DNA of 58,790 nt from a virus. The position numbers and the translations under genes are program-made. This document shows positions 1 through 58,790 of the stretch, piece by piece. The stretch covers positions 1 to 58,790 of the IMG/VR virus record IMGVR_UViG_3300028844_003404; one strand, given 5' to 3'. The number at the start of each line of letters is the position of its first letter. Positions within the stretch are counted from its first letter, which is position 1. The notes beneath the pieces are model-generated. The model had not been told where the DNA came from. It was given only the letters and a program-made list of their open reading frames with translations, and did not search any database.

Positions 1-2934
1 TTATGTCCTAATTGTCCAACACCGACACCTACACCCACACCAAGTACAACTCCCGATTCATGGACTATCGTAACTAATCTATTGACACTGGAAGGTTGTT
101 GCGATGGAATTACCTATACCGCAAATACCACATTAAACATATCTTCAAACGTTAATGACTACGTATATTTAATTAATGGTAACTCACCTTATAATAGTAG
201 TTTTACTTCTGGATGTTACAAAATACTCTCATCGTCGGCACAAACAGGGTCTTCACAAGGGACCATTACCGAAAATTATGGGTCAGTAAGTTGTACTTCA
301 TGTACAAATAACCACCCTTGTTTACAAAAATATACAGGTTGTTCCGAAGAATGTACGGTAGTTTCTTACCCATATGATACAGTACCCTTCAATTACTCCG
401 GAATCGACTATGAAATACCTACAGTCATACAAGAACCTGCCCATTTAGCACCTTTAGCAAATGAAAATGGTATTGTAACTGATTCCGCGATGTTGGCAAC
501 ATTAATATATTATCAAGGAGGTACATGTGATAATATTGAATATTTTTGTGATACGTTTCTGAATGATGATGGTGCAATAACAACCGCAGACCTATTGACG
601 GTTCTACAAACTTATGGAGAACTGTCTTCATATATTCAAGAACAAATAACATGTCCTTCGGTGTATACTCAAGGTCTTAATCCAACACTAAATGGTATTT
701 ACTACGTTACTCAAGAACAAAATTGTTATGAGTATGTGGGAGACGTTAACAGTATTGACCAACCCGTTATTGATTTTAGTATCGATACCGAATACACAGG
801 GTGTACCGAATGTATTGAAGACTCGATTCCTACACCCACACCTACACCTACAATAACACCTACAATAACACCTACACCATCTATAACACCATCTATAACC
901 TCAACTGTAACACCATCTATAACTGTAACACCTAGTTCGACACCTTCACAATTTATTTATAAAGTATTATTAAGTGGATGTTGCGATAATGAGACATATC
1001 TTGATAATGTTCAGTTTACTAATCAAATAACTCAAATAAATGATACTTTCTATTTTGGTGGTGACGGTACTCAGAACATATTACCACAATGTTATACGGT
1101 GATAAATTTTGTATTAGACAATACTTTAACACCTTCTTTCACAATAGATAACAGTACTGGATTTGATAACTGTTCTTCGTGTTTAGCGTCAAACCCATGT
1201 ACTTCATTATATCGAGCAAAATCTTGTTGTACAGAAGGAGTTGAAGATTTGTTTGTTACAGTAGTGGGAGACCAACCTATTTTAGGATTTCATGGATTCT
1301 CATATTTAGGAAATTGTTTTGTATTCGTTGAGGGTCAAGGTAGTGGAAGTGGTAGTATTACAGTAAATTCAGACAACTTTTTAGAAAATATATGTACTGA
1401 CTTAATATTAAACCCTCAACAATGTAACCCATGTCCATCAGTTACTCCTAGTGTAACACCATCGGTAACTACAACACCATCGGTAACTACAACACCATCG
1501 GTAACTATGACGCCATCGGTAACTATGACCGCAACACCGTCAGTGACTCCAAGTTCTTCAGAACCACTACCCATTGTTTATTACACAGTAGTTCCGTGTT
1601 GTTCATCAGTTAGCGATGGCTCCGGATATGTTTTGGGTGTTATTTTTAATGGTACCATCACATCTCTTAATATTGGTGATGTATTTGTTTGGAATGTTTT
1701 CAACCCTGGAAACCCAATATCATGGAGGGTAGTCGGAACTTCATCTTCGGAAAATGTCGCATATTTTTATTTAGAAGACGAAGATATATTTCAGGGAGGA
1801 GAAAATAATTGTTTCGATGCCGCTAATGCATTCGATATATTTTGTACCCAAACCGGATATTTCACCGGGTGTACAACAGGAAACGTATATTTTTTATATG
1901 ATTTGAACAGTAGTTCTGGGACCGTGGGAATCGCACCACAATACGGTGAATCGGCCACCTATTATTATGAGGGGATACAAGACGAGTTATCAGTAAACGG
2001 GGATTGTTATCTTAACTTTGTTGAGGGAGACATTTCAAATGGGTGGGCTGATATAACAACATTAGGTCCCGATTTAGGAGAACTTTTATCGTACCCCTTA
2101 GGATGTCAAAACTGTCCAACACTGACACCGACACCAACACCATCAATAACACCTACTCTCACACCTACTCTCACACCTACCATTACTCCAACACCTTCGG
2201 TTACGTCATCACCTATACCTGACTCTATACAGTGTGGAGACTTTATTAATATCAGTAGTGATAATTTTAATGAGGTTTTAAACCCTGACGGAACTATACA
2301 ATCATATCCAACGAGTAGTACGATTATAAACGCGACACTTAATTTATCATCTTGTGCCGGTACTGTAAAATTCTCGATGTTTACGTGGAATATACCGGAC
2401 AGGATTGTAGTTAAAAACAGTTCAGATGAGGTTGTTATTGATACTTTATATATAGGTCAACCATTGGTCGAAGGAAACGTTGTTAGTACTATTGTGGGGA
2501 ATAGTCCGTTTGAAAGTAACGTATTTACGTGGAATAACGATACTGAACAGTTAGAGTTCACTAACTCTGAATCTGTCGAAGTTACGGTGAATGACTTCCC
2601 CTTCCATTCAGATTCCGGTAATTTCACATATCCATTATATACTAATGTATGGGACGATAATGGAGTTTCTAGATATGGAGCAAAAGGGCAAATAGGTGGT
2701 ACTCTAGAATATGTTAATGATGTGGGGTCTCCTATATCTCCACTATTTTGTGACTCATCGGTGGTAGCTAATAACACTTACGCTTGTTGTGGTGGTGAAC
2801 CCTTCCAAAGGAGAGTATTCTCTTTTGTTAAACCTCAAGGGGAGTCAGTTTATAATTTAACAGTTTACGGAGGAACGTGGGGCACTTACGGAACTGGGTA
2901 CGGAATAACTTTATTAGAATGTCCATCTTGTTAA
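1..2934 (+). CDS. Cysteine-rich, TP-linker adhesin-like tail protein (5' partial)
   Basis: The frame is open from base 1, so the gene starts upstream of the window; 977 codons are present. The protein is a string of cysteine-rich globular segments joined by Thr/Pro/Ser/Val linkers (nt 25-54, 829-948, 1435-1560, 2116-2220). Segments tend to open with a GCC or PCC motif and close with a C-x-x-C pair just before the linker (CTEC, CNPC, CQNC, and CPNC at the window edge). The first full segment also holds an EF-hand/dockerin-like stretch (DTFLNDDGAITTADLL, nt ~550-600). The last segment (nt ~2230-2934) has no following linker and may be the C-terminal head. No signal peptide can be judged because the start is missing. 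Position among tail genes and the design suggest a long flexible fibre or host-adhesion protein of the virion; this is inference. It resembles the proteins at 51448 and 57998 in linker style. Confidence 0.6.
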   Translation, partial: LCPNCPTPTPTPTPSTTPDSWTIVTNLLTLEGCCDGITYTANTTLNISSNVNDYVYLINGNSPYNSSFTSGCYKILSSSAQTGSSQGTITENYGSVSCTSCTNNHPCLQKYTGCSEECTVVSYPYDTVPFNYSGIDYEIPTVIQEPAHLAPLANENGIVTDSAMLATLIYYQGGTCDNIEYFCDTFLNDDGAITTADLLTVLQTYGELSSYIQEQITCPSVYTQGLNPTLNGIYYVTQEQNCYEYVGDVNSIDQPVIDFSIDTEYTGCTECIEDSIPTPTPTPTITPTITPTPSITPSITSTVTPSITVTPSSTPSQFIYKVLLSGCCDNETYLDNVQFTNQITQINDTFYFGGDGTQNILPQCYTVINFVLDNTLTPSFTIDNSTGFDNCSSCLASNPCTSLYRAKSCCTEGVEDLFVTVVGDQPILGFHGFSYLGNCFVFVEGQGSGSGSITVNSDNFLENICTDLILNPQQCNPCPSVTPSVTPSVTTTPSVTTTPSVTMTPSVTMTATPSVTPSSSEPLPIVYYTVVPCCSSVSDGSGYVLGVIFNGTITSLNIGDVFVWNVFNPGNPISWRVVGTSSSENVAYFYLEDEDIFQGGENNCFDAANAFDIFCTQTGYFTGCTTGNVYFLYDLNSSSGTVGIAPQYGESATYYYEGIQDELSVNGDCYLNFVEGDISNGWADITTLGPDLGELLSYPLGCQNCPTLTPTPTPSITPTLTPTLTPTITPTPSVTSSPIPDSIQCGDFINISSDNFNEVLNPDGTIQSYPTSSTIINATLNLSSCAGTVKFSMFTWNIPDRIVVKNSSDEVVIDTLYIGQPLVEGNVVSTIVGNSPFESNVFTWNNDTEQLEFTNSESVEVTVNDFPFHSDSGNFTYPLYTNVWDDNGVSRYGAKGQIGGTLEYVNDVGSPISPLFCDSSVVANNTYACCGGEPFQRRVFSFVKPQGESVYNLTVYGGTWGTYGTGYGITLLECPSC
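829..948 (+). repeat. TP-rich linker coding repeat 1
   Basis: Degenerate ACACCT/ACACCATCT-type codon repeats encode alternating Thr-Pro, Ile-Thr-Pro and Pro-Ser units between two cysteine-rich segments of the same protein. Confidence 0.85.
1435..1560 (+). repeat. TP-rich linker coding repeat 2
   Basis: Repeats of the 15-base type ACACCATCGGTAACT encode Thr-Pro-Ser-Val-Thr units. Several copies are near-identical at the DNA level, so the tract could expand or contract by slippage or recombination. Confidence 0.85.
2116..2220 (+). repeat. TP-rich linker coding repeat 3
   Basis: Codes for Thr-Pro and Leu-Thr-Pro-Thr units, including a direct repeat of ACTCTCACACCT, directly after a C-x-x-C pair. 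Confidence 0.85.
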
Positions 2935-2935
2935 T

Positions 2936-3289
2936 ATGGAATTTTTTATAAATAAAGGTAGTGAGTCTCCCATCCTAATTATGGAAATAGTTCAGGATGG
3001 GAGAACTGACTCGTATCAGAAATTTAATGAAGAACTTGTAAACTCAGTTATAAGGTTTTCAATGAAAAGGGAGTCGGATGGTTTGGAAAAAATTATTATG
3101 AATAACGCATACATAACTGAAAAGTTATTAATAAATCCTGACACCCCACGAGAATATTACATTTATTATAAGTGGTTAGAAAGGGATACCAATCAAAAAG
3201 GTAGGTATATTGGAGAATTTTCAATAACCACTAAGGAAGGTATTTTAATCGCCCCAATCCGAGAACCTCTTTTTATTAATGTTATTTGA
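2936..3289 (+). CDS. Small tail-type structural protein, unknown
   Basis: 117 aa, ATG one base after the TAA of the preceding adhesin gene, so the two are likely translated together. The C-terminal half has the pattern Y-x-W-x-x-x-D-T ... G-x-Y-x-x-E-F ... P, which is common in beta-rich domains of phage baseplate and fibre-associated proteins (BppU-like N-terminal domains show it). No catalytic motif, signal peptide or membrane segment is seen. The role is inferred only from this pattern and from its neighbour. Confidence 0.6.
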   Translation: MEFFINKGSESPILIMEIVQDGRTDSYQKFNEELVNSVIRFSMKRESDGLEKIIMNNAYITEKLLINPDTPREYYIYYKWLERDTNQKGRYIGEFSITTKEGILIAPIREPLFINVI

Positions 3290-3316
3290 CAAACTTTAGA
3301 TTGTAGACTATATTTG
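3285..3316 (+). promoter_or_regulatory. Bacteroidetes-type promoter of DNA polymerase gene
   Basis: TTTG (3285-3288), then 20 bases, then TATATTTG (3309-3316), matching the Bacteroidetes consensus TTTG...TAnnTTTG. It lies about 70 bases upstream of the chosen polymerase start and overlaps the end of the preceding gene by a few bases. Confidence 0.65.
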
Positions 3317-3385
3317 TTACAAATACCAAGAGAAATCACGTCAAAGCGATGTGAGAATAATATCTCAGGTGAAAAGTTAAAAATT

Positions 3386-6145
3386 ATGGTCTCACAAGAA
3401 GAAATTGAACAATTCCTCCACGGAGAGGATGAAGAAAAATATATCGTAGCGCTAGAATACGACTACCGTTCGAATAAGATTTTTAAGGTTATTCAACACC
3501 CTACAAACGGAAAGCAGATAAAGACGGATTCTTTTATTCCATTCGCTTGGGTGGGTGATTTAAAAGGTAAAAACTTTTATAACGGTTCTAAACATGCTCA
3601 AAAACAGGCAATGTCCGAACATGGGATATTGATTGAAACTCTTTCTACCCATGGGGACGAAAGGATGGAGCAAGGTTTAAAGTATATGGTTAAGACCACT
3701 AAAACATATTCTAACCTTGTGAACTTTTTTAAAAATGGAGGATTAAACCCTTGGGATAGAGAGAATACAAATGCGATTGCGATACTATCTCCCGTAGAAC
3801 AGTATCTTTGTCAGAAACAAAAAAGATTGTTTAAGGGGTTTGATGAGTATGATGAAGTACATCGATTCGTCTTTGACATTGAGACTACGGGTTTGGATGC
3901 AAATACTGAAAAAATATTCCTAATCGGTATGAAAGATAATAGGGGGTATGAAAAGGTGATATCAGCACAAAATGAAGAAGAGGAAAAGGAGATGATTGTC
4001 GAATTTTTTAATGTCATTAATTATCTAAAACCGACATTGGTCGGTGGATATAACTCAGCGTTTTTCGATTTTCCTTTTATTTTAACAAGAGCAGAAATGT
4101 TAGGTTTGGATATTGGAAAAATAGCTAAGACTCTTAACCCCGAAAAAAAACTTAGACAAAAACAAGGGATGTTGAAGCTTGCAAATGAGATGGAAGATTA
4201 TACTCAGACCATGATGTGGGGTTATAATATTGTTGACATCGCACATGCTGTTAGGAGGGCTCAGGCAATTAACTCAGACATAAAGAGTTGGGGACTTAAG
4301 TACATCACCCAATTTATCGGAGCTGAAAAGGAAAATCGTGTATACGTCAAAGGAGATAAGATTGGAAAAATATATTTTGATAATAAGGATTACTACTTCA
4401 ACCCTAAAACTGGAGGATATAAAGAAGTAGGTTCTCCGGGTACAGAAAATCTTATGGAAAGGTTTCCTGGTCACTATGAAGAAGTAAATGGTGAATACCT
4501 CATCGAGAGATACCTATATGATGATATATGGGAAACCATGGTTGTCGATGAGGAGTTCAATCAAGCTAACTTTCTTCTCGCTAAACTTGTACCCACAACC
4601 TATGAACGACTTTCTACTATGGGTACCGCAACACTGTGGAAAATGATTATGATGTCATGGTCGTACAAACACAGTCTCGCAATACCTAAGAAAGGGGAGA
4701 AGAGGTCGTTTACAGGGGGTCTCTCACGACTTTTACAGGTCGGGTACTCCACTGATGTACTTAAGCTCGACTACTCGTCTCTATACCCCTCTATTCAACT
4801 CGTACACGATGTATTCCCTAAGTGTGATGTTACAGGTGCTATGAAGAGTATGTTGAAGTACTTCCGTGATACTCGTATTAAATATAAGAAGTTAGCTGCG
4901 GACCACTACACTACAGACCCTAAACTATCTTCACAGTATAATCGAAAACAACTTCCGATTAAAATTTTTATTAACGCGTTCTTCGGGTCTCTGTCTGCAC
5001 CTCATGTATTTCCGTGGGGAGATATGGATATGGGGGAACAGATTACGTGTACAGGTAGACAATACCTTAGACAGATGATTATGTGGTTTATGGAACGTGG
5101 GTATGAACCATTAGTTATGGATACTGATGGTGTTAACTTCGCAGTCCCTGACGGTCGAGATGACCATAAATACGTAGGTAAAGGGTTAAACGGTCTTGTG
5201 CAAGAAGGTAAAGAGTATTCGGGTTCAGAGGCTGATGTTGCGGAATATAATGATATATTTATGAGGGGTGAAATGGGTCTTGATACCGATGGTCAATGGC
5301 CGGCAACTATTAATGTTGCTCGTAAAAACTATGCACTTCTTACCGATAAAGGTAAAGTAAAACTAACAGGTAACACTATTAAGTCTAAGAAACTACAAAC
5401 GTATGTTGCCGAGTTTTTGGACTCAGGATTACGTATGTTGTTAGATGGTAAAGGTCAAGAATTCTTAGACTCATATTATGATTATGTCGGTAAGTTATAT
5501 AATCGTGAAATCCCTATATCTAAAATTGCGAATAAAGCTCGTGTAAAACAGTCTATAGAAGAATATAAAGTTCATATCACGAAAAGAACTAAGTCGGGGT
5601 CTTTTATGTCTAGACAAGCACATATGGAATTAGCAATGGCAAATAACTTAAGTGTGGGTTTGGGTGATACCATATACTATGTTAATAACGGTACTCGAAA
5701 ATCTCACGGTGATGTACAAAAGAAAAAAGATGAGGTTGTTATTAATTGTTATCATGTTGATGAAAAAGATATGGAGAATAACCCTAACAAGTTGGGTGAG
5801 TATAACGTTCCTCGTTATGTTACCGCTTTTAATAAAAGAATTGAACCTCTATTGGTTGTGTTTTCTCCTGAAATACGAGATGAAATTTTAGTAGAGAATC
5901 CTGATGATAGACCATTATTTACAAAGACTCAAACTAAATTAGGTAGAGGGTACCCAAGAAAAGATGGGGACCAAGATACATTAGATGAGGTACTTACCCT
6001 ATCTGACACTGAGAAAGTGTTTTGGGATAGTGTGGGTATCAACCCTTTCTATATGTATTTAGAAGGTACTGAAGAACTAGTCAACACCAATTATGTCGAG
6101 AAAAATAAAATTCTTATGAATTCTTTAAACCATCAGACGACATAA
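3386..6145 (+). CDS. 43: Family B DNA polymerase (T4 gp43-like)
   Basis: Replicative DNA polymerase with 3'-5' proofreading, 919 aa from the ATG at 3386; T4 gp43 is 898 aa. Exo I has D164 and E166 (DIETTGLD), Exo II is GYNSAFFDFPF. Polymerase motif A is DYSSLYPSI (D462), motif B is the KIFINAFFGS region, and motif C is MDTDGV (D579, D581), with Gly where many family B enzymes have Ser. An upstream in-frame TTG at 3314 is rejected as start because it overlaps the TATATTTG promoter element. The gene is expressed from its own host-type promoter and ends convergently, overlapping the minus-strand gene at 6114-6446 by 32 bases. Together with gp32, gp41, UvsX and RNase H encoded further on, it forms the phage replisome. 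Confidence 0.97.
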   Translation: MVSQEEIEQFLHGEDEEKYIVALEYDYRSNKIFKVIQHPTNGKQIKTDSFIPFAWVGDLKGKNFYNGSKHAQKQAMSEHGILIETLSTHGDERMEQGLKYMVKTTKTYSNLVNFFKNGGLNPWDRENTNAIAILSPVEQYLCQKQKRLFKGFDEYDEVHRFVFDIETTGLDANTEKIFLIGMKDNRGYEKVISAQNEEEEKEMIVEFFNVINYLKPTLVGGYNSAFFDFPFILTRAEMLGLDIGKIAKTLNPEKKLRQKQGMLKLANEMEDYTQTMMWGYNIVDIAHAVRRAQAINSDIKSWGLKYITQFIGAEKENRVYVKGDKIGKIYFDNKDYYFNPKTGGYKEVGSPGTENLMERFPGHYEEVNGEYLIERYLYDDIWETMVVDEEFNQANFLLAKLVPTTYERLSTMGTATLWKMIMMSWSYKHSLAIPKKGEKRSFTGGLSRLLQVGYSTDVLKLDYSSLYPSIQLVHDVFPKCDVTGAMKSMLKYFRDTRIKYKKLAADHYTTDPKLSSQYNRKQLPIKIFINAFFGSLSAPHVFPWGDMDMGEQITCTGRQYLRQMIMWFMERGYEPLVMDTDGVNFAVPDGRDDHKYVGKGLNGLVQEGKEYSGSEADVAEYNDIFMRGEMGLDTDGQWPATINVARKNYALLTDKGKVKLTGNTIKSKKLQTYVAEFLDSGLRMLLDGKGQEFLDSYYDYVGKLYNREIPISKIANKARVKQSIEEYKVHITKRTKSGSFMSRQAHMELAMANNLSVGLGDTIYYVNNGTRKSHGDVQKKKDEVVINCYHVDEKDMENNPNKLGEYNVPRYVTAFNKRIEPLLVVFSPEIRDEILVENPDDRPLFTKTQTKLGRGYPRKDGDQDTLDEVLTLSDTEKVFWDSVGINPFYMYLEGTEELVNTNYVEKNKILMNSLNHQTT

Positions 6146-6446
6146 TAAACCATCCGTCCCTTAGAAACCTAAGTTCTACAGATGCCCCATTCTGCAATTC
6201 AATCTCATCAAATTCTTCATCAATCGAATAATCTCCAACCACTAAAACATCGGTTAATGCTTTAATTGTTATGTGTTCAGTAGTTGTTGAGTCTAATTGT
6301 AACTTACAAACTTTAACGTCCTTAATGATAATTGCAGACTCTCCGTTTGTGGTATATGATTCACTACTTAAAAGTGTTGATTCTGAGGTTTTAATGGTTA
6401 GACCATTAATAATTTTTGTAACTGGTGTTGATTTAAAAATTGCCAT
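6114..6446 (-). CDS. Small beta-rich protein downstream of gp13-like gene, unknown
   Basis: 110 aa, not recognised. It starts one base after the stop of the gp13-like neck gene on the same strand and shares its operon. Its 3' end overlaps the 3' end of the polymerase gene by 32 bases. The sequence alternates short polar and aliphatic stretches, rich in Thr, Ser, Ile and Val, as in small beta-sandwich virion proteins; no Cys pair or catalytic motif stands out (one Cys). Because it follows a neck gene it may be a minor virion protein, but that is inference from position only. Confidence 0.65.
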   Translation of the reverse strand: MAIFKSTPVTKIINGLTIKTSESTLLSSESYTTNGESAIIIKDVKVCKLQLDSTTTEHITIKALTDVLVVGDYSIDEEFDEIELQNGASVELRFLRDGWFIMSSDGLKNS

Positions 6447-6447
6447 A

Positions 6448-7560
6448 TTATATTGAATAAAATTGTCTTGGGAATGCCCGATATTGTAATGATTTATTTA
6501 AGTTTTCAGCTTCGTTAGCCTGTCTTTCCATCATTTTATCAGGTCTTAATCTTTCTAATCTTTGAGTTAGTTCCTCGATTAGTTTTGATTTTTCGTCTTT
6601 TGATTCTGTTAAAAGGGAGTCGTACTCCATTTGTATTTCTGAGTCTGGTGTTTTTAGATTTCCTAAGTACTTTCCTCTTACCCTTCCTAAAGATTCTTTT
6701 ACGTAAGCCGTAAACCACCTTCTAACCCACGTCTGTGCCGGATTATTTAACTCATCCCACAACATTTCATCTATCGGGATGTCTGAAGGTAATCTTACTA
6801 TATCAGGGTTTTCAGCTAAACAAGTCTCTCGGTCATCAGTTTCATAATACCAATACCACACAACATATTGATTATATTGAATGTTACCAAAATCAAATTT
6901 ACCTCCAGGTACGTTCATTAGATGAACTGCCTTTTTACCTTCAGGTAGTGCTGTAATTCTATAAGTTAAATCACCTGAGATTATTCTTCGCTTAATGTTA
7001 ATGTCTTGCATTCTAAGTAACATATCAAATGCGGGTGTTATAAAATAATTTCCCTGAGAACCCATTTGAGAGAATCCCGCTCCACCACCTAATCCTACAC
7101 CACCGAAACCACCGAAACCACCCATAAATGGGTCAAAAAATGCCGCGTCTAATTCTGCCCTACTAAACCATAATAACTCATTAATTTCTCTTCCTGCGGG
7201 TACCTCATAAATTTGTTGTCCAGGAACTAAGGTAATAAAATCTTTTTTTAACACTGAGTCTCCTCCGGCCTGTAAACCAACAATTTTTGAATAGGCATAT
7301 GTGTATTGGGTTTCCCAATCTAAACTACGAGTTATAAACGCTCTAGTTACTGATTGTTCATCTAAATTTAATCCATATAATGATGTCCACTGAGCCTCAA
7401 TTAACCAGTCATTAACATACTGTGCGTAGTCTTGAATTGATAATTCCATTAGTGAGTCCATCATTTCATCGGTAATTTCTACACCGCGTAAGGGAGCACC
7501 TAATAGGTGTTTTATACGAGTATATAGTTTACTTCTTTGTGGTTCGTTAATTGCTGACAT
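6448..7560 (-). CDS. 13: Neck protein, gp13-like
   Basis: 370 aa. The N-terminal segment, with LGAP followed by acidic residues, a run of Asp/Glu-rich helix and a Tyr-rich end (residues ~15-50), resembles the start of T4-family neck protein gp13, which closes the portal and forms the head-tail neck. T4 gp13 is about 309 aa; the extra length is partly a glycine-rich insertion (residues ~145-168, GGFGGFGG and GLGGGAG). The C-terminal third is a charged helix/coiled coil rich in Glu, Lys and Arg. The ATATTTAT motif lies on the same strand 14 bases upstream of the ATG. In T4 gp13 and gp14 are adjacent; here the gp14-like gene (11005) is on the other strand, three genes away. The assignment rests on pattern memory, not an alignment. 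Confidence 0.6.
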   Translation of the reverse strand: MSAINEPQRSKLYTRIKHLLGAPLRGVEITDEMMDSLMELSIQDYAQYVNDWLIEAQWTSLYGLNLDEQSVTRAFITRSLDWETQYTYAYSKIVGLQAGGDSVLKKDFITLVPGQQIYEVPAGREINELLWFSRAELDAAFFDPFMGGFGGFGGVGLGGGAGFSQMGSQGNYFITPAFDMLLRMQDINIKRRIISGDLTYRITALPEGKKAVHLMNVPGGKFDFGNIQYNQYVVWYWYYETDDRETCLAENPDIVRLPSDIPIDEMLWDELNNPAQTWVRRWFTAYVKESLGRVRGKYLGNLKTPDSEIQMEYDSLLTESKDEKSKLIEELTQRLERLRPDKMMERQANEAENLNKSLQYRAFPRQFYSI

Positions 7561-7574
7561 AATGTGTTTTATAT

Positions 7575-7582
7575 ATAAATAT
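7575..7582 (-). promoter_or_regulatory. ATATTTAT candidate phage promoter, gp13-like gene
   Basis: ATATTTAT on the minus strand, followed by ATATAAAAC, 14 bases upstream of the start at 7560. Confidence 0.5.
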
Positions 7583-7599
7583 TTAGAAATCTTTATTTA

Positions 7600-9159: not shown

Positions 9160-9170
9160 TATTTTTATAT

Positions 9171-9178
9171 ATAAATAA
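9171..9178 (-). promoter_or_regulatory. TATTTAT candidate phage promoter, SOD-fusion gene
   Basis: TTATTTAT on the minus strand, followed by ATATAAAAA, 11 bases upstream of the ATG at 9159; nearly identical in sequence to the motif before the gp13-like gene. Confidence 0.5.
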
Positions 9179-9198
9179 TGCGAAATATAAAAACAGAC

Positions 9199-41943: not shown

Positions 41944-42423
41944 ATGGCAATAAATAAATCATACGGTATAAAATTTCCATTTTCTAAAAGTGTTAATGGT
42001 AATTATCTCACTCGGACAAAAACTGCGGAAGAGGAGATAAGAACGGATTTATTACATTTAATATTAACAAGGAAAGGTAGTAGATACTACTTACCTGACT
42101 TTGGGACTAGAATTTATGAGTTTATTTTTGAACCAATGGACGGTCCGACATTTGACGCGATAAAATCAGATATACAAACATCTGTTGATAAATATATACC
42201 TAATTTACAGATTAATGATATATCAATATCTCCTTATAGTGAAGATGATAGAAATGTTGCGGGTACTCTAAACACCGAAGACCAAAACTCTGAATATGAA
42301 ATGTTTGATATTTTTAGGACAGCGGGTGAAGGGGTAGATGAATATACTGCGAAAGTAAAAATAGACTATTCTATTAAAGATACTACATTTGAAAGTAGAG
42401 ATTTTATAATAATTAATATTTAA
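41944..42423 (+). CDS. 25: Baseplate wedge protein, gp25-like
   Basis: 159 aa. 'YGIKFPFSKS', 'EEIRTDLLHLILTRKGSRYYLPDFGTRIYEFIFEP' and 'DKYIPNLQINDISI' are the hallmarks of the gp25/lysozyme-like wedge family, which anchors the sheath to the baseplate. Slightly longer than T4 gp25 (132 aa) owing to a polar insertion near residues 95-120. Gene 6 follows five bases after the stop, giving the conserved 25-6 order. Confidence 0.95.
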   Translation: MAINKSYGIKFPFSKSVNGNYLTRTKTAEEEIRTDLLHLILTRKGSRYYLPDFGTRIYEFIFEPMDGPTFDAIKSDIQTSVDKYIPNLQINDISISPYSEDDRNVAGTLNTEDQNSEYEMFDIFRTAGEGVDEYTAKVKIDYSIKDTTFESRDFIIINI

Positions 42424-42428
42424 ATTAT

Positions 42429-44267
42429 ATGGCTAATCGTAAAATATCGTATACGGAAAGAGATTTCGAAGGTTTAAGGCAAGACCTTATAAACTTTACA
42501 AGACAGTATTATCCGGACCTCATTGATAATTTTAATGACGCTTCTGTATTCTCAGTATTTTTAGATTTAAATGCGGCTATTGGAGATAACTTAAATTATC
42601 ATATAGACAGAAGTATACAAGAAACTGTATTACAATATGCACAACAAAAATCTTCAATATATAATATTGCTAGAACCTATGGATTAAAAATACCTGGTAA
42701 TAGACCTTCTATAGCTTTATTAGATGTATCTATCACTGTTCCTGCTTTTGGAGACCAAGAAGATAGTAGGTATTTAGGTATTATAAGGTCAGGTTCTCAG
42801 TTTATAGGCGCGGGACAAATATTTGAAAATCAAGACGATATTGACTTTAGCACTCAATATAATAGTAGTGGATTCCCTAATAGGACTAAAATACCTAATT
42901 TTGATAGTAATAACCGAATTATTAATTATACGATAACTAAACGAGAAGTTGTGGTTAACGGAGCCACTAAAATATTTAAAAAAGTAATTAATAATAATGA
43001 TGTTAAACCATTTTATGAGTTCTTTTTACCTGAAAAAAATGTTATAAGTATAACATCATTAATTCAGAAAGACGGTATTACCTACTCAAGCCCACCCACT
43101 TATGGTGAATTTATAACCGCACCTGATAGATGGTATGAGGTAGACGCTTTGGCGGAAAACACAGTATTTGTTGAAGACCCAACAAAAGCTTCGGATAATC
43201 CAGGAATAAAAGTAGGTCGTTATATTGAAACTGAAAGTAGATTTATATCTGAATACACACCTGAAGGTTATTGTAAATTAACTTTTGGTTCTGCTACGGT
43301 TACTGCTGATGACCAATTAGCTCAATTTGCTAAAACAGGGATACCACTTAGGCTTGAAAATTATCAAAACAATATTGGGTTAGGTAGAACTGTTAAGGCT
43401 AATACCACATTATTTGTTAAATATAGAGTAGGGGGTGGAATAGGTTCTAATATCGGAGTAAATACGATAACTCAAATCGGAACCATTAATTTTGCAGTAA
43501 ACGGACCGTCACCTAGTATTAATCAGAATGTAATTCAAAGTTTAAGGTCTAATAATGTAACCGCTGCGATAGGAGGAGGTAACCTACCCACTACTGAAGA
43601 GGTACGTAATATGGTTACATATAATTTTGCCGCTCAAAAAAGGGCGGTTACAGTAAATGATTATAATTCATTAATTAGAACTATGCCAAGTAGATTTGGT
43701 GCACCAGCTAAAGCATCTATAACGGAAGAAGATAATAAGATTAAAATAGAAATACTATCATTTGATGATAATGGTAAATTAACTAGTAATGTGTCAAATA
43801 CCTTAAAACAAAATATTGCAAATTATTTATCTAATTACAGGATGATTAATGATTATATTTCAGTAAGAAGTGCTCAAGTAATTGATTTAGAATATGAATT
43901 TTCAGTAGCAATGGAATCTAGTGAAAATCAGGGTCAAGTAATAACGAGTATAGTTGACAGTGTTAATTCATATATGTCACCATCGACTAACCTATTAGGT
44001 AAAAATGTAAATATATCTGACATAAGGAGATTGATACAAGATATACCTGGAGTAAGTACATTGGCGGATTTGAAAGTTTTTAATAAAACAGGAGGTCAGT
44101 ACTCATCTTCTGAGACCTCACAAAGATATTTGGACAAAAACACCAAACAAATTGAACTAATTGACGATACTATTTTTGCACAACCAAATCAGATATATCA
44201 GATAAAGTTTCCTGAAAAAGATATTAAAGTGAGAATAAAGCAATTGAAGAACGTGGAATTCTCATAA
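42429..44267 (+). CDS. 6: Baseplate wedge protein, gp6/BaseplateJ-like
   Basis: 612 aa, close to T4 gp6 (660 aa). 'ISYTERDFEGLRQDLINFTRQYYPDLIDNFNDASVFSVFLDLNAAIGDNLNYHID' type N-terminus and 'VNDYNSLIRTMPSRFGAPAKASI' in the C-terminal third are typical. gp6 dimers form the inner ring of the baseplate and control sheath contraction. It directly follows gp25. A new promoter motif appears in the 73-base gap after it. Confidence 0.95.
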   Translation: MANRKISYTERDFEGLRQDLINFTRQYYPDLIDNFNDASVFSVFLDLNAAIGDNLNYHIDRSIQETVLQYAQQKSSIYNIARTYGLKIPGNRPSIALLDVSITVPAFGDQEDSRYLGIIRSGSQFIGAGQIFENQDDIDFSTQYNSSGFPNRTKIPNFDSNNRIINYTITKREVVVNGATKIFKKVINNNDVKPFYEFFLPEKNVISITSLIQKDGITYSSPPTYGEFITAPDRWYEVDALAENTVFVEDPTKASDNPGIKVGRYIETESRFISEYTPEGYCKLTFGSATVTADDQLAQFAKTGIPLRLENYQNNIGLGRTVKANTTLFVKYRVGGGIGSNIGVNTITQIGTINFAVNGPSPSINQNVIQSLRSNNVTAAIGGGNLPTTEEVRNMVTYNFAAQKRAVTVNDYNSLIRTMPSRFGAPAKASITEEDNKIKIEILSFDDNGKLTSNVSNTLKQNIANYLSNYRMINDYISVRSAQVIDLEYEFSVAMESSENQGQVITSIVDSVNSYMSPSTNLLGKNVNISDIRRLIQDIPGVSTLADLKVFNKTGGQYSSSETSQRYLDKNTKQIELIDDTIFAQPNQIYQIKFPEKDIKVRIKQLKNVEFS

Positions 44268-49749: not shown

Positions 49750-51461
49750 GTAATAAAAAAAACTCAGATATTAGAATAGTTAGAGGTGAAGACCGGTTTG
49801 CGGGCGCTTCTAATACTGATTTATTGATTAACGTTAATTTAGAGAGTAAAGAAAAAAATCTTATAGAAGGTGATAGAAGTTATGTTTTAAATTTAGAACA
49901 AAGATTTGATGATGAGAGACAAAAGTCTACTAAATTTAGAATTGCAGGTAAAATAACTAACATATTTAACAATATCATTAGTGGGCAAACTACCTATGAA
50001 CCATTTAGAAATTCTTTATTTTATGTAAACGCGTATAACGCCGTTTCTTTAGGGTCTCCATGGCAAGGATACCCTCAATACGATGAATTTACTTTTTTTA
50101 GAACTAGAGGGATAGAGGGTCATATACCGTTTATAAATAAAAGTGCTAGTTCATATAATTGGATGACATATGTGACATATGCTAGTGGAAATAATACAAC
50201 TCAGAACTTAAGACAAACAGTAAACTTCGAAAGCGGTACATCGGTTAATAATTTTGTGGTAAGTGACGGTGTTCCATACTATATAATTAATACTCAAGAT
50301 AGGGGCAAAAATTTAATTACTTTTTATTGTGGGTTTAAACATAACTTATCACTTGGAGACTGGATTTACACTAAAGACGAAATAAACGGTAAGAGGTATT
50401 TTGAAGTATATCAATTAGGGGATGCTTCATATGATAATGAGATGAGTGTTTTTTCTATTTTTAATTATGGATTTACCGACCCTCTTTTTGGTAATTACTC
50501 TATAGGTAATTTCAAAAAAGTTATTGATATAAATAATAAAGAAGAGACCACTTCACAATATTATGTTAGGGAACATAAAGTACTTACAAAAAATACTCAC
50601 TCCGACTTAACAAAATTAGGATATGAAACTAATCCTTTTCCTGTTAAAAAACAATTAGAATACTCGGCATTAACACCTAATAATATAGAAAGGGTGTCCA
50701 TTAAAGACGGTAACAATAGCGTTGGATTTTCTTTTGACAAAGATATTGATATTAATACGTTAAGAGATAATTTAGAAAGACCTTTAAGTGAGTTATTTGT
50801 TACAATCATAAATAAAGGTTATATGGGTTGGTTTAATAATCCATACGTACCTAATAATACTACTGGAGTTCAGGTAGGTTGGGATTTAAACTTTTTGAAG
50901 GATACTGTAGACGAGTGGTGGGATGTTAATAATACTACTAATCGAGATAACATCCCTAATGGAAGTTATGAGTACAATAGTAATACATTTTTTTATAATA
51001 AAAATTTAGAAATTGGACATAAGTTAATGGGTGATATATGTGACTATAACGATTACGAACAAAAAGAAACGGTACTATCAAATATAAGTCATAAAATATC
51101 TTATAATCCTCAGACTTTCGATAATAATAGTATTAATACTCTACCTAACGGATACGCTTATAAACCACATTACAATGTACCTATACGAACCTATTCTGAT
51201 TACCTTGAAGTCGGTGAAGAAAATTCAGTAGACTTAGTACCCGATTACGCCTTTTTATCCAAATATGAAAGGCAATGGAGATGGAGAGATTTATATCCAT
51301 ATGGATATAAAGATACTGATGGTAATGGTATTGATAACCCATTTTTAAATGGAGCCCACTACCCATTTAAAGAAATAATATTTCTACTAACGCCCATGAA
51401 AAGAAATGATAATAATTACAACAATGTAATATTTGCCCCAATATCTGATGACTGTGAATAA
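49746..51461 (+). CDS. Tail-tip structural protein, unknown
   Basis: 571 aa, not recognised. Rich in Asn, Tyr, Phe and Gly, beta-type throughout, with no Cys cluster. Its ATG overlaps the previous stop (ATGA) and its last 14 bases overlap the next gene, so it is made with them. The composition and coupling indicate a virion tail-tip or baseplate part. The last ~100 residues contain 'YERQWRWRDLYPYGYKDTDGNGIDNPFLNGAHYPF', in which DTDGNGIDN could be a short Ca-binding-like loop. Confidence 0.7.
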   Translation: MSNKKNSDIRIVRGEDRFAGASNTDLLINVNLESKEKNLIEGDRSYVLNLEQRFDDERQKSTKFRIAGKITNIFNNIISGQTTYEPFRNSLFYVNAYNAVSLGSPWQGYPQYDEFTFFRTRGIEGHIPFINKSASSYNWMTYVTYASGNNTTQNLRQTVNFESGTSVNNFVVSDGVPYYIINTQDRGKNLITFYCGFKHNLSLGDWIYTKDEINGKRYFEVYQLGDASYDNEMSVFSIFNYGFTDPLFGNYSIGNFKKVIDINNKEETTSQYYVREHKVLTKNTHSDLTKLGYETNPFPVKKQLEYSALTPNNIERVSIKDGNNSVGFSFDKDIDINTLRDNLERPLSELFVTIINKGYMGWFNNPYVPNNTTGVQVGWDLNFLKDTVDEWWDVNNTTNRDNIPNGSYEYNSNTFFYNKNLEIGHKLMGDICDYNDYEQKETVLSNISHKISYNPQTFDNNSINTLPNGYAYKPHYNVPIRTYSDYLEVGEENSVDLVPDYAFLSKYERQWRWRDLYPYGYKDTDGNGIDNPFLNGAHYPFKEIIFLLTPMKRNDNNYNNVIFAPISDDCE

Positions 51462-53073
51462 GTATAAAATTAAAATATCACCAAATGACAGGTACATCAA
51501 TATACCTATCCAAATCGACACCGACCTTTTAGGTAGGGATGATTTAATTGATGAATTTGAAGATGAAACAATAGAAAAAGTAATAAATCCTATTGAAGAT
51601 TTTGAATTAACTAGATTTGCTCATAAAGATTGGGTTGAAAACAATCAATTAAAATCTAGTATCGAACATAAATTCTTTTTTTATAATAGAGAGCAAGATA
51701 TAGGTAGTATTTCTAACACTAATAGCTCAGTTTGGGTTAATGATTACAATTTTACGAACAATCCTAATTATATTGATACATGTTTTACAGAGGCGGACGT
51801 TTACTATAACTCAAATTCATTTAGAAACAGTTTTTTTAAGTTAGACTTATACGATACTATTGATACTGAAACTCAAAAACTTTATTTAACGATAATAATA
51901 CCCACGCAACAGGGTAAGACTAGACTTTCATCTACTGAACCATTCGTAGATAGTAGTGGTCCGATACAAGGACCTGATTTACCTGACTTACAACCTGATT
52001 CACCTTCAGGCGCTCGTAATGCGTCGGAAAGGATGAGTCAAAAAGTGTATGAAGATGAATTAAATAGATTAATTATAGAAAAAGAAAACAACCCAAAAAA
52101 ATACGAAACTACAAATATACATAATCGAGCCCATAAGGCTCAACTACAATATGAGTTGGACGAGGTTGTAAGGAAAGTTGAAGAAAGTAGAAACGAACAT
52201 AAAAAAGATAGTCTAACGACTACTACACCATTAATAACTCCATCTATAACACCATCATTATCGTCTACAATTCCTTCAGATGTTAATTTATTGTTTGATT
52301 CTTATGAGGTTACATTTGTAAATTGTAATTCAGAAACATTAACAAAGTATATATCGGTAAATTTATGGAATAATTTCTTTGATTGGCCGACTTATGGATA
52401 TTCAACAAACTTTGATTCTGTATGTTATGAAATAACAAGTGCAAATACATCTACAATTATACCTGACCCACCTTTATCAGACTACATACAGTCTTCTTAT
52501 GGATTTGTAAATAATGATTGTGGGTGTATAACACCTACACCTACACCGACTAATAGTGTTACATCCACTCCACCTCCTACCCTAACCCCTACTCCAACAC
52601 CAACGACTTCACCTCCACCTCCACCAACACCAACGGCTAGTTATATCCCTGCAGAAGATGTGGGAAATGTCAATAATAATCCAAATGGTATTGGTAGTGG
52701 GGGTACACCGTCTTTAGTTACCGCACCGGCAAACGCTCAAATTAAAATACCCGACTTTATTTTAGATTACGTAGGGGATAAAGAGGGATACTTTATTTAT
52801 TGGTTAAAAAATCCTAACTACTTAGTTATTAATGATTTTTATATGTCCGCTAAATTTTTTAATGCCAAAACAGGTCAATTTATTAGAATGATGAACCAAC
52901 CTCAAAACTCAATACCTACGAGATATAACTTTAATAATGCGGATTACTTTTATTATAAAATATTGATGGACTATGATAATTATGAATATGAGGTTAATAA
53001 TACACAATCAAATCAAAGGGTGGGAACATCGTTAAATGAAATAAAATGGTATGAATATGTTAATCCATCATGA
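51448..53073 (+). CDS. Tail-tip protein with inserted TP-linker adhesin module
   Basis: 541 aa from ATG 51448; an upstream in-frame TTG at 51433 is less likely. Three parts can be seen: an N-terminal domain starting 'KYKIKISPNDRYINIPI'; a charged helical stretch (~190-255) with many Glu, Lys and Arg; and a Cys-containing bead ('FVNCNSETLTKYIS...FDSVCYEITS...NDCGC') flanked by TP/PS linkers (nt ~52228-52275 and 52527-52643). A final beta domain follows ('QIKIPDFILDYVGDKEGYFIYWL'). The bead plus linker resembles the modules in the protein at the left window edge, as if a mobile adhesin cassette was placed inside a tail protein. Overlaps both neighbours. Confidence 0.75.
   Translation: MTVNKYKIKISPNDRYINIPIQIDTDLLGRDDLIDEFEDETIEKVINPIEDFELTRFAHKDWVENNQLKSSIEHKFFFYNREQDIGSISNTNSSVWVNDYNFTNNPNYIDTCFTEADVYYNSNSFRNSFFKLDLYDTIDTETQKLYLTIIIPTQQGKTRLSSTEPFVDSSGPIQGPDLPDLQPDSPSGARNASERMSQKVYEDELNRLIIEKENNPKKYETTNIHNRAHKAQLQYELDEVVRKVEESRNEHKKDSLTTTTPLITPSITPSLSSTIPSDVNLLFDSYEVTFVNCNSETLTKYISVNLWNNFFDWPTYGYSTNFDSVCYEITSANTSTIIPDPPLSDYIQSSYGFVNNDCGCITPTPTPTNSVTSTPPPTLTPTPTPTTSPPPPPTPTASYIPAEDVGNVNNNPNGIGSGGTPSLVTAPANAQIKIPDFILDYVGDKEGYFIYWLKNPNYLVINDFYMSAKFFNAKTGQFIRMMNQPQNSIPTRYNFNNADYFYYKILMDYDNYEYEVNNTQSNQRVGTSLNEIKWYEYVNPS
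52527..52643 (+). repeat. TP/PP-rich linker coding repeat
   Basis: Codes for alternating Thr-Pro and a run of Pro directly after a C-x-C (CGC) motif, in a tail-tip protein. Confidence 0.85.
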
Positions 53074-55050: not shown

Positions 55051-58001
55051 TGGCTGATAACAAGTTTAGATATCCACCAGCTCCTCCTAATGCTAGAGGA
55101 ACATTTTCTGACAACTTAGTTGGTTTACAACTTGTTGATGGTGGAGGTCTTACGCAGGCAAATTTTGAATTCACAACAAATGTTGTTGAAAAGGTTAATA
55201 GAACTTTTGATACGGGTGTCTTTTCTAATCCTATATCATTAAATGATTTAGATTTTAACAGTATTGAAGAATCTAAGATAGTATTGGCTAAAAACTTTAA
55301 AGTTTACCCTAATTATGATATAAGTCAGGTTACTAATTTTGCGATGTATGGTTCTTTAAGAAAAAGAATGTCATCTTCAGTAACAAATATAGTTAATTTT
55401 TTTCCAGCTGCAATATCTATAGATAGGATTTATTATGATTATAACACAGGATATACGGCTTATAATATTTCTTATGATGATATTGAAGGTTTAACAACTT
55501 TTGATATTGACGTTACCAGATTTAAAAATCCATTCGATATTGATTACTCAGAAAATTCCGATAGGAATATCTCAGTTAGACCTTTTGAGGTGAGCCCTTT
55601 AAGAAATCTTACTAGACATTTCTTAAAGTATTCTTTATTTTTTGAGGATTTGAAGACTGAATATAAATTTGTTGACTTCGACCCTTCAACAAAACTATCG
55701 GCAGGGACTGTACAAATCGTAGTACAAGGAAATCCTTTCAGTGGCCAATCCACTTCAGTTGATAATATTTTATTAAAACCAAATAAAGAAGAAACGGATA
55801 AAGTATTTATCGACGATTTTAATGAAGTAGAAGATTTCTTATTAAATCGTTTAGTAGTTCCAATATACACTTCTAAATTTGAAATATTAAGGGAGGGGCA
55901 AGACGGTCAAGTATATAAGGCTTATCAGAGTATAACTTGGAGTTTAGACGGGACTTGGAATTTAGATATAAGAACAAATAAGTTTGATAATTACTTAACA
56001 GAATTAAATAGTATATCTGATGAAATTGATGAGTATAAGAGTAATTTAATATCGAGATTTTTAACCACAGGGGCTTTTAAAGATTTTGACACTCCTAATA
56101 AAAATGTCGAAAAGGTTTTACAATTATATGGTAGGAGTTTTGATGAAACTAAAAAGTTCATTGACGCGTTATCTTATATGAATTCAGTTAATTATGTCGT
56201 GCAAAATGATATACCTTCTCAGTTATTAACAAATTTGGCTCAGACAATAGGATGGGACACTAACATTTCACCGATTACGAATGATAAGTTCCTAAGTAGT
56301 GTATTTGGAAATCAAGATGGTAACGTATTTCCTGGTCAATCAGTAAATAAGACACCAACCGAACTTAACTATCAGTATTATAGAAATTTAATATTAAATT
56401 CCGCTTACTTATTTAAATCTAAAGGTACTAGACGCTCAATAGAGGCTCTTATGAGACTAGTCGGGGCTCCCGACGCATTAATAGACTTTAATGAAATAAT
56501 TTATTTAGCTGACGGTCCAATAAATATAGAAAGATTTAATGAAGAATACGCAACTATAACGGGAGGTACTAAGACCACAGAAACGCCGGTTTTAGACCCA
56601 AACGTTACTTTTAGTTTTGAAGGTGTTACATATACCGGGTTTACAACTCAACTAACATTAAGTAATGTAGATACTGTTAGAAATGATTATCCTGTTGATA
56701 GTTTTGGATATCCACAATCTCCGGTAGAGACTGAAGAAATGTTTTTTGAAAAAGGTGCTGGATGGTACGAACAGACACCTGAACATAGGGCGCCTACTGT
56801 GTTAGATACTACAGATTCTGTTTTCACAGGACAAAACCCTGATATACAGACAACCTTAGAACCGTTTACTTATGGTCAAAAATATTTTAATAGATTTAGA
56901 GATTTCCCATATATGGATTTGGGTTTTGGTTTAACAAGAACCTATGATAATAATAAATCTTGGACAGATAATGAATTAGGTTTAAGGAGAAATACTGAGG
57001 CTGGTTATAATGCCTATTATGTGGTAGATAATGAAAAATTGGTATTAAATGCTAAAAATATCGATTTAGGGTTAAATATGGGTCAAGGTATTATATACGA
57101 TATATGGGATATGTCAAAAAAATATAATTACCCATTCCCTTCAACAGGTTTAACATCACCTTATCCTTATCCTGAAGGAATTGATTGGACAGTAATTAAT
57201 CCAAAGCCAAAAGAAAAGACATTTTTTGAATTTGCTCAGACCTTTTATCGTAACATGATTAATGTTAGGAATAGACAAACAATAACAGACGGTAAAGGAG
57301 GCGGGTATCCGACACTACAATCAGTTTATTGGAAATATCTTAACTCAGAAGAGTCTGTAGGTATACCATCCAATAAATATACCTATCAAAAAATGATTGA
57401 TTTCACTAATGGTATTGGTGATTATTGGATGAAACTAATTGAACAGATGATTCCCGCTTCAACTATATGGATGGGGGGTCAAAAAATGGAAAATAACGTA
57501 TTACAGAGACAAAAAGTAGTATGGAGAAGACAAAGAGGATGTGAGTTAGTACCGATACCCTGCATACCATGTACATTCACGGGTCAATTACTTGGTAGTG
57601 ACTGTACTACACAAACTTTAGACTGTGATATTGGATTAACAAATCCACAAACGACATTGATAAATAGCATTAATAGTGCGGTTGGTAACGAAGGGTATAA
57701 TGTAAGTGACTGTCAATTAAACACTTTGACAAGTTTGTGGTATGTGGATATAAGACTTAGTGGTTCATTACTTAGAAAAGATTTATTCTACACTGGATAT
57801 GGAAGTGGTGATTACCCATCTAGTGCTGAGTGGTTGACGGCGGTAGAGACATCTTTATCTAATTTATCTCAGGACGGACTATCTTATAGTATTAACGGTA
57901 ATAACATAACAGTTACTAATATAGGGTGTAATAATGATTTTACTAATAAAACTTTGCAAATAAACGCAGGAGTCAACATAAATATTAATTGTACGTCATG
58001 A
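55050..58001 (+). CDS. Baseplate/tail protein, gpI-like, with Cys-rich C-terminal module
   Basis: 983 aa. Residues ~350-480 have the signature of P2 gpI-type baseplate proteins: 'VLQLYGRSFDETKKFIDAL', 'LLTNLAQTIGWD', 'YRNLILNSAYLFKSKGTRRSIEALMRLVG'. These link wedges to fibres. From residue ~825 on there is a different, Cys-rich tail ('CELVPIPCIPCTFTG...SDCTTQTLDCD', then 'GLSYSINGNNITVTNIGC') that looks like a separate bead-type domain. ATG overlaps the previous stop; its own stop overlaps the next ATG (ATGA at 57998-58001). Confidence 0.8.
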   Translation: MADNKFRYPPAPPNARGTFSDNLVGLQLVDGGGLTQANFEFTTNVVEKVNRTFDTGVFSNPISLNDLDFNSIEESKIVLAKNFKVYPNYDISQVTNFAMYGSLRKRMSSSVTNIVNFFPAAISIDRIYYDYNTGYTAYNISYDDIEGLTTFDIDVTRFKNPFDIDYSENSDRNISVRPFEVSPLRNLTRHFLKYSLFFEDLKTEYKFVDFDPSTKLSAGTVQIVVQGNPFSGQSTSVDNILLKPNKEETDKVFIDDFNEVEDFLLNRLVVPIYTSKFEILREGQDGQVYKAYQSITWSLDGTWNLDIRTNKFDNYLTELNSISDEIDEYKSNLISRFLTTGAFKDFDTPNKNVEKVLQLYGRSFDETKKFIDALSYMNSVNYVVQNDIPSQLLTNLAQTIGWDTNISPITNDKFLSSVFGNQDGNVFPGQSVNKTPTELNYQYYRNLILNSAYLFKSKGTRRSIEALMRLVGAPDALIDFNEIIYLADGPINIERFNEEYATITGGTKTTETPVLDPNVTFSFEGVTYTGFTTQLTLSNVDTVRNDYPVDSFGYPQSPVETEEMFFEKGAGWYEQTPEHRAPTVLDTTDSVFTGQNPDIQTTLEPFTYGQKYFNRFRDFPYMDLGFGLTRTYDNNKSWTDNELGLRRNTEAGYNAYYVVDNEKLVLNAKNIDLGLNMGQGIIYDIWDMSKKYNYPFPSTGLTSPYPYPEGIDWTVINPKPKEKTFFEFAQTFYRNMINVRNRQTITDGKGGGYPTLQSVYWKYLNSEESVGIPSNKYTYQKMIDFTNGIGDYWMKLIEQMIPASTIWMGGQKMENNVLQRQKVVWRRQRGCELVPIPCIPCTFTGQLLGSDCTTQTLDCDIGLTNPQTTLINSINSAVGNEGYNVSDCQLNTLTSLWYVDIRLSGSLLRKDLFYTGYGSGDYPSSAEWLTAVETSLSNLSQDGLSYSINGNNITVTNIGCNNDFTNKTLQINAGVNININCTS

Positions 58002-58790
58002 CATTAGTAAAATATACCATACAAAATTGTAACGACCAATCAGAGTATAGGTTAACCTTTAATAATGCTACGCACCTAAATTCAGGTGAGATTTGGGATA
58101 TTGAGTGTAATAACATAAATAATGGATGTTATTACATTAATGAAGACACTAATAAAGTTTTAGATGAAATAAATGGAGACGATTGTACATTTATTGAGTA
58201 TGTCGATTGTGAAACATGTGAAGAAGCGAATTTACTTATTTCATCCTTAATGTCGGCACCTGCTCAAAGCTGTTATCGGTGGGATAGATGTGACGCGGGG
58301 TTAGGAAACTTATACACACTAATAACCGACACACCAATAAATGATAGTATTTTATATTACGGAGTGTGTTATGAAATAACCACTATAGTTGTAAATATTG
58401 ACCCTACCGACTTAAGTGGAATACCTAGTAACTTATACTATGATAAATGTTCTATGTGTGTACCTACGTTTTTAGATTGTGATTTAGAGTTCGGTACGGT
58501 TAGTCCTACACCGACACCCACAATAGGCGCAACACCATCAGTCACTGCCACACCATCAATCACCGCTACTCCATCAATTACCGCAACTCCAGGAGCGTCA
58601 ATCACTGCCACACCATCAGTCACTCCATCAATCACTGCCACACCATCAATCACCGCTACTCCAGGAGCGTCAATCACAGCAACTCCATCAATCACTGCAA
58701 CTCCATCAATCACTGCAACTCCATCAATTACCGCAACACCATCCATAACAGCAACACCATCAATCACCGCTACTCCAGGAGAGTCAATCA
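57998..58790 (+). CDS. Cysteine-rich TP-repeat adhesin-like protein (3' partial)
   Basis: ATG at 57998 overlaps the preceding stop; the frame is open to the window end (264 codons). Residues 1-165 form a Cys-rich segment: 'IQNCNDQSEYRLTF', 'IECNNINNGCYYI', 'YVDCETCEEANLL', and a closing pair 'KCSMC'. From residue ~168 it is pure Thr/Pro/Ser/Ile/Ala repeat (PSITAT units). The architecture matches the partial protein at the left edge. It is probably a long tail fibre or adhesin whose globular tip lies beyond the window. Confidence 0.8.
   Translation, partial: MTLVKYTIQNCNDQSEYRLTFNNATHLNSGEIWDIECNNINNGCYYINEDTNKVLDEINGDDCTFIEYVDCETCEEANLLISSLMSAPAQSCYRWDRCDAGLGNLYTLITDTPINDSILYYGVCYEITTIVVNIDPTDLSGIPSNLYYDKCSMCVPTFLDCDLEFGTVSPTPTPTIGATPSVTATPSITATPSITATPGASITATPSVTPSITATPSITATPGASITATPSITATPSITATPSITATPSITATPSITATPGESI
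58502..58790 (+). repeat. Tandem 18-base repeat coding PSITAT units
   Basis: About a dozen copies of an 18-base unit (CCATCAATCACTGCCACA and close variants) encode Pro-Ser-Ile-Thr-Ala-Thr. They are broken at intervals by CCAGGAGCGTCA, giving PGAS. Near-identical copies side by side make slippage or recombination likely. The repeat runs off the window. Confidence 0.9.

Follow-up and report, generated by a model that had tools for sequence, protein, structure and literature searches.

The 58,790-nt stretch of viral DNA analysed here (the window) begins inside a gene whose product strings cysteine-rich beads on Thr-Pro linkers, which raises the question of what these beads are and what such chains do for the phage. 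The open reading frame (ORF 1; 1-2934, + strand) is 5'-truncated, with no start in the window, and encodes 977 of ~1,440 aa, i.e., the C-terminal two thirds of the protein. It contains about six Cys beads of ~75 aa, four of them strong profile matches, in the motif pattern CC...CY/CF...CxxC, together with uncharged Thr-Pro linkers. Its features, with scores from the profiles described below, are as follows:

1..2934, + strand: Cys-bead/Thr-Pro adhesin-like protein, C-terminal part; full-length copies in relatives
16..54, + strand: Thr-Pro linker 1 (PTPTPTPTPSTTP); linker composition scan
76..321, + strand: bead 1 (GCC...CY...CxxC); profile A2 E 4.9e-10, held-out profile 13.0 bits
322..840, + strand: bead 2, apparently interrupted by a ~90-100-aa insert; C-terminal part 667-840 E 6.2e-9, held-out 16.3 bits
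823..948, + strand: Thr-Pro linker 2; linker scan
958..1203, + strand: bead 3 (type GCC); E 3.4e-10
1204..1434, + strand: bead 4, abutting bead 3 without a linker; E 1.3e-12, held-out 21.4 bits
1435..1560, + strand: Thr-Pro linker 3; linker scan
1561..2115, + strand: two candidate degenerate beads in tandem (PCC...; GC...CY...CxxC); weak, held-out 7.2 bits, E 0.38 at 1579-1701, motif by eye
2116..2220, + strand: Thr-Pro linker 4; linker scan
2221..2931, + strand: C-terminal domain, non-bead; homologous in L102, preceded by a different ~230-aa module in L108

Full-length copies of the protein (1,439 and 1,443 aa) are present at L007:4134-8453, on another IMG/VR contig (97% identity to ORF 1 in the matched segment), and at L009:4981-9312, on the 270-kb record G001 (77% identity); given these copies and the size of G001, the window is a fragment of a large genome. 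It maps to G001 in reverse orientation, from about 75 kb down to about 16.5 kb, and its two bead genes are therefore separate loci. Both window ends (1 and 58790) lie inside Thr-Pro genes, and the contig ends of the window, G001, G002, and G004 repeatedly fall within Thr-Pro or Gly-Ser repeat genes; such genes explain why assemblies of this lineage frequently break and why genes are cut there. G001 also carries four adjacent genes of Gly-Ser-Ser/Gly-Thr-Ser/Gly-Glu-Ser triplet repeats (L014:1-9516, i.e., G001 1-9,516; up to ~1,000 aa), which have a collagen-like period, contain no proline, and adjoin Thr-Pro genes.

A bead family was built from a seed of nine beads, with which an HMM search gathered 87 unique beads in 32 loci. 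The bead alignment and profile (A2; 53 rows) has a mean column identity of 19% and four near-invariant cysteines: the first of the CC pair, that of CY, and both of a final C-x(2-8)-C. In the window, A2 matched 76-321, 667-840, 958-1203, 1204-1434, 58010-58231, 58268-58480, and, weakly, 1579-1701 (E 0.38). A2 is partly built from window beads, and as a test against circularity we used a held-out profile trained only on beads of other proteins. This profile recovered residues 404-476 (21.4 bits), 209-272 (16.3), 28-102 (13.0), 323-395 (9.2), and 528-612 (7.2) of ORF 1, and recovered nothing from 400 composition-matched or Cys-fixed shuffles. Cysteine makes up 4.4% of ORF 1, compared to 0.56% of the other window proteins. 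The motifs CxxC (7 observed, mean 1.8 after shuffling; P = 0.003) and CC (5 observed, mean 1.8; P = 0.02) were enriched, and C[YF] alone showed no excess over shuffled sequence. Such counts only modestly exceed those of shuffles; the held-out profile is the real support for the beads. The architecture that the initial annotation had read in 1-2934, i.e., CC...CxxC beads joined by Thr-Pro linkers, is confirmed by both profiles, which also place the beads in a common sequence family; judged by these profiles, the beads make up a single domain family, which is new and very divergent.

The simpler picture of one bead per linker needs amending: beads and linkers are real, but beads often occur in pairs with no linker between them, and inserted domains interrupt some of them. 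The bead 2 insert has, by eye only, a likeness to an EF-hand/dockerin loop. Dockerin (PF00404) was rejected for this insert, as ORF 1 gave no match at E 0.1; in the relative L036 the dockerin profile scored 17.0 bits, below the 22.9 cut-off. No bead matched Pfam, PHROGs (53 beads searched), or NCBIfam, and a search of PDB sequences returned nothing significant (best E 0.064, an unrelated demethylase domain). Against PHROGs, the bead proteins matched no tail-fibre family, only two families of unknown function through the Thr-Pro stretch. No description of these beads was found in open-licence papers.

Cysteines are near-frozen in these proteins while the remaining sequence drifts. The L101 and L108 proteins keep 53 of 54 cysteines at 51% overall identity, and all 14 members of a related bead protein family have exactly 28 cysteines, with 26 of the 28 Cys columns invariant compared to 22% of the other columns. 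This conservation agrees with the earlier description of the beads as disulfide-looking, and the beads are likely to be disulfide-stapled; two core disulfides, and often a third, would be expected per bead. Among 53 beads, 35 contain six cysteines and seven contain four, odd counts being partly due to cut boundaries. The optional cysteines tend to come in pairs, although the best-paired ones are from orthologous N-terminal beads and hence non-independent. Beads that instead bind a metal (Zn) through the four near-invariant cysteines, with no disulfides, appear quite unlikely: the number is exactly four and the cytoplasm in which assembly takes place is reducing, but the optional fifth and sixth cysteines tend to appear together and the last two core cysteines are spaced by 2 to about 8 residues, a variability unlike that of a zinc knuckle, which we dropped for this reason. 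Given the reducing conditions of cytoplasmic assembly, the disulfides could form only late or once the cell has lysed. G001 encodes thioredoxin.

The ORF 1 linkers (residues 6-18, 275-316, 479-520, and 706-740) comprise 132 residues, none of them charged, and consist of T, P, and S with a few V, I, L, M, and A. The known O-glycosylation system of Bacteroidota depends on an Asp preceding the Ser/Thr and targets non-cytoplasmic proteins (PMC12871550). The earlier speculation that the linkers are O-glycosylated fares poorly against this requirement: the Asp-Ser/Thr-hydrophobic sequon of the known system is absent from 25,466 linker residues pooled from all loci; ORF 1 outside its linkers contains four, and the bead sequences 35. 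This system is thus disfavoured as a route to linker glycosylation, which could still proceed by another. Among other genes of the relatives, a trypsin-like protease gene with a GDSGSALL motif lies between two Thr-Pro genes (L015:6772-8028 (-) and L007:1493-2749) and matches Pfam Trypsin at E 4.6e-4, just below the cut-off, and L016:5761-6651 (-) encodes an apparent coiled coil of VEKIVEVIKEVE-type heptads repeated in tandem.

The second bead locus lies at the right end of the window, in the following context:

41944..44267, + strand: baseplate wedge genes (gp25-like, gp6-like), as context; PHROG matches
51433..53073, + strand: 546-aa gene with two Thr-Pro linkers around one divergent bead-like stretch; 5 Cys, weak bead 6.0 bits
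55050..58001, + strand: 983-aa conserved gene with no database name, directly upstream of the right-end bead gene; anchor for 80 relatives
57989..58790, + strand: second bead/Thr-Pro gene, 5' part, cut by the contig end; 891 aa in G001
58010..58231, + strand: N-terminal bead of C-N type, in which an extra Cys pair compensates; E 7.9e-15
58268..58480, + strand: second bead of the right-end gene; E 1.4e-10
58493..58789, + strand: Thr-Pro/SITATP linker array, cut by the contig end; linker scan

The initial annotation had noted the same style in both Thr-Pro genes listed here. This holds for the right-end gene, with its two beads, but less so for 51433-53073, with its few cysteines and single weak candidate; the G001 homologue of the latter has a bead match at E 1.5e-5. 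Similarly, the noted G/P-C-C opening of the beads holds in ORF 1, but the right-end beads open with CN/CD instead. PHROG matches in the window to sheath (E 9e-49), tube (6.5e-30), gp25-like (1.5e-18), and gp6-like (2e-20) proteins identify a predicted T4-like myovirus tail module, i.e., contractile sheath, tube, and gp25/gp6 baseplate. The right-end bead locus is downstream of the gp25-/gp6-like genes on the same strand.

We collected 160 IMG/VR loci of relatives at the two loci: 80 via the 983-aa gene and 80 further via the DNA polymerase, with some on the same contigs. At the locus beside the tail genes, most of the 80 relatives have the 983-aa gene directly followed by a ~780-aa SprB-like core. 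In one part of the tree, beads, vWA, and a 'FYDGTSL' domain, joined by Thr-Pro linkers, stand between the two; mapped on the tree, the switch between direct-core and inserted arrangements requires two changes. L023, L024, and L026 encode the core and the beads in a single chain; in G001, L028, and L042 the core has a gene of its own. vWA (PF00092, E down to 5e-49) scored above the cut-off in L022, L023, L024, L026, L030, and L048, and the SprB repeat did so in a G001 gene adjoining the homologue of the right-end gene (43.2 bits vs 28); in fused proteins of relatives, both lie within bead chains. Neither vWA (PF00092) nor the SprB repeat (PF13573) was found in the window's own proteins. The presence of vWA varies between close relatives: it is found in L026 but not in the L027/L028/L042 clade, and in L024 but not in its sister L025, which is, however, cut short by a contig end. 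The FYDGTSL domain (L023, L033, L043, L048; ~350 aa, with a DGTS motif) sits inside a bead, between the CC half and the CY half, and is reminiscent of a divergent vWA. Separately, the last ~75 aa of the 55050-58001 product are 37% identical (E 5e-6) to part of the SprB-core protein (L014:12071-12295 (-)); the two segments could possibly represent a common docking domain.

A simple scan for an N-terminal hydrophobic segment was negative for 7/7 bead proteins (maximum 1.28, compared to 2.58 in the OmpA control). SprB-type repeats and vWA are, by their Pfam names, typical of bacterial surface proteins, and one might therefore suppose that the chains are host-surface or secreted proteins made during infection, e.g., for superinfection exclusion or biofilm change. 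We regard this as very improbable in view of the lack of a signal-peptide-like N-terminus in all seven proteins and the gene position among tail genes.

At the ORF 1 locus, a small gene lies between the bead gene and the DNA polymerase gene:

2936..3289, + strand: 117-aa conserved gene; most relatives have a homologue next to their polymerase gene, and L112, L118, and L147 also have homologues

This gene (117-135 aa) is kept nearly throughout, and the gene preceding it varies: members of the window's clade and L108/L109 have a bead protein gene there, L103 has bead, Thr-Pro, and other genes, L112, L117, and L118 have Thr-Pro genes without detected beads, and more distant relatives mostly have neither a bead nor a Thr-Pro gene. 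The bead part of the L108 protein shows 50% identity over 1,100 aa; after it, a new ~230-aa module precedes the C-terminal domain. In L112, L118, and L147, long Thr-Pro proteins begin with the small domain of the 117-aa gene. A BppU-type baseplate anchor was rejected for the 2936-3289 product, which had no Pfam or PDB profile match.

Comparisons of closely related chains show where they differ. L043 and L051, whose neighbouring gene is 97.8% identical in nucleotides, differ by one module of ~400 aa, in which a bead encloses the FYDGTSL domain; it is present in L043 and absent in L051, with both breakpoints in Thr-Pro linkers. A 59-nt direct repeat (90%) flanks the L043 module, its copies lying 1,383 nt apart; a simple recombination of one copy with the other would not give the L051 junction. 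Linkers are also the sites at which L045 and L047 differ, by one module of 108 aa and another of at least 49 aa. In addition, phages with 83% identity in their polymerases have a 303-aa module in common at 92.7-94.1% identity, placed in different chains. This module (SCYVAGPL...HIFHTVHLFG; L015:8056-11607 (-), L112:1751-7063, L007:1-1480) has no Pfam match and is possibly an enzyme domain. Modules are thus gained, lost, and re-used, as the initial annotation had suggested, and cassette gain and loss at linkers is well supported.

Across close pairs (≥80% identity), all 21 indels of at least 4 aa, from the six pairs having such indels, fell in linkers, which make up 13-34% of the alignments of these six pairs (11-34% over the close pairs) and within which alignment is uncertain. 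Most of the 21 are short (4-34 aa) and the small ones may be slippage; L022 and L023, a divergent pair with 49% identity, have the majority of their indels outside linkers, as would be expected of an old split. Because low-complexity tracts gain small slippage indels anyway, only about three module-size events support cassette exchange. It is conceivable that linkers change by ordinary slippage and that module differences are rare deletions, with no special exchange mechanism; the short lengths of most linker indels would fit, and ordinary homologous recombination between repeats requires no dedicated system. We consider this account somewhat unlikely, given that near-identical modules recur in different chains and in different phages, and that vWA is repeatedly present or absent among close relatives. 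We infer that recombination between linkers causes the module changes.

Our preferred reading, to which we assign a probability of roughly 0.6, is that these genes specify attachment proteins of a T4-like myovirus that are long, flexible, and built of several domains, that most likely sit on the baseplate or tail, and whose modules are exchanged at the linkers. Of the modular adhesin system first suggested, the modular part stands on the observed module turnover; for the adhesin part, we infer a virion location and receptor binding from the position by baseplate genes, the lack of a hydrophobic N-terminus, and the vWA and SprB repeats in relatives' chains. The proteins might instead decorate or shield the virion in the form of whiskers on the head or tail, keeping the phage in mucus, gels, or particles, with the beads as mere spacers. 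There are several such genes per genome with collagen-like GSSG-repeat genes nearby, the beads themselves have no recognised binding domain, and jumbo phages are known to carry whiskers and hair-like fibres of unproven role (PMC7824862). This alternative nonetheless seems unlikely to us, since the genes adjoin baseplate genes and since the vWA/SprB modules and fast module turnover suggest selection on specificity.

As attachment proteins, the chains would consist of Cys-stapled beads and optional larger binding domains (vWA, SprB-type, and others), spaced by uncharged, extended Thr-Pro tethers such that several weak binding sites could sample the host surface. Beads would serve as rigid spacers and scaffolds, with binding domains placed into or beside them. 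The Thr-Pro coding tracts may act as seams because they are low-complexity and mutually similar; recombination there would add, remove, or replace whole modules in frame, leaving folded domains undamaged. More tentatively, and with somewhat less than even odds, we propose that the unnamed Cys-stapled bead is a generic scaffold in a phage display-like system, in which Thr-Pro recombination seams exchange binding modules between genes and phages, re-tooling attachment quickly without a dedicated recombinase or reverse transcriptase; the vWA, SprB-type, and other modules would possibly be host-captured.

For phage host range, the usual account is one of point changes or swaps at a fibre tip. Here, the attachment protein would appear as an open string with its seams written in the DNA, in a widespread lineage of large, uncultured marine phages. 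This provides a concrete model, testable on sequences through linker breakpoints and intact modules, of how large phages change attachment domains, and adds a new small, probably disulfide-stapled domain family. Searches by tblastn with ORF 1, the upstream tail gene, and the vWA-bead stretches gave no match in cultured phages; the SprB-like core found one uncultured 642-kb record (E 6e-6). No cellular contig was retrieved in contig searches that used either the 983-aa gene or the DNA polymerase as query. Among cultured phages, Salinibacter phages have the closest polymerases (about 25% identity), and from these and the SprB repeats our guess is that the host may belong to the Bacteroidota. If true, domain-level exchange of host-like SprB/vWA modules would bear on how phages track gliding bacteria.

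Among known systems, cellulosome scaffoldins with Thr-Pro boxes are secreted cellular proteins in which Thr-Pro tethers connect small, rigid domains and binding modules can be swapped. The chains resemble such bacterial P/T-linker surface proteins in having small domains on Thr-Pro tethers with swappable modules; in contrast, the bead genes are phage genes with no apparent signal peptides, and beads match no database searched. The likeness to SprB, the gliding adhesin of Flavobacterium (PF13573), consists of SprB repeats, scoring above the curated cut-off, in neighbouring proteins of G001 and in fused proteins of relatives; the repeat domain alone is common to both, and the phage proteins appear to lack a secretion signal. 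Jumbo phages display LamG/concanavalin, discoidin, and C1q domains on virion fibres (PMC7824862), and likewise have adhesion-type domains in common with cell-surface proteins. However, the text of that paper does not contain the word cysteine, its passages on these domains do not describe beads or Thr-Pro strings, and vWA there concerns a MoxR-vWA chaperone and TerF. There is a parallel in position with T4-like tail fibre/adhesin loci, which are likewise beside baseplate genes, hypervariable, mosaic, modular, and presumed to mediate host recognition; similarly, in haloarchaeal tailed viruses an adhesin gene in a hypervariable region sets host range (PMC8651126). The bead/linker chains differ from T4-like fibres in matching no recognised tail-fibre family and in the site of exchange, which takes place in one fibre tip in those loci and between tethered cassettes here.
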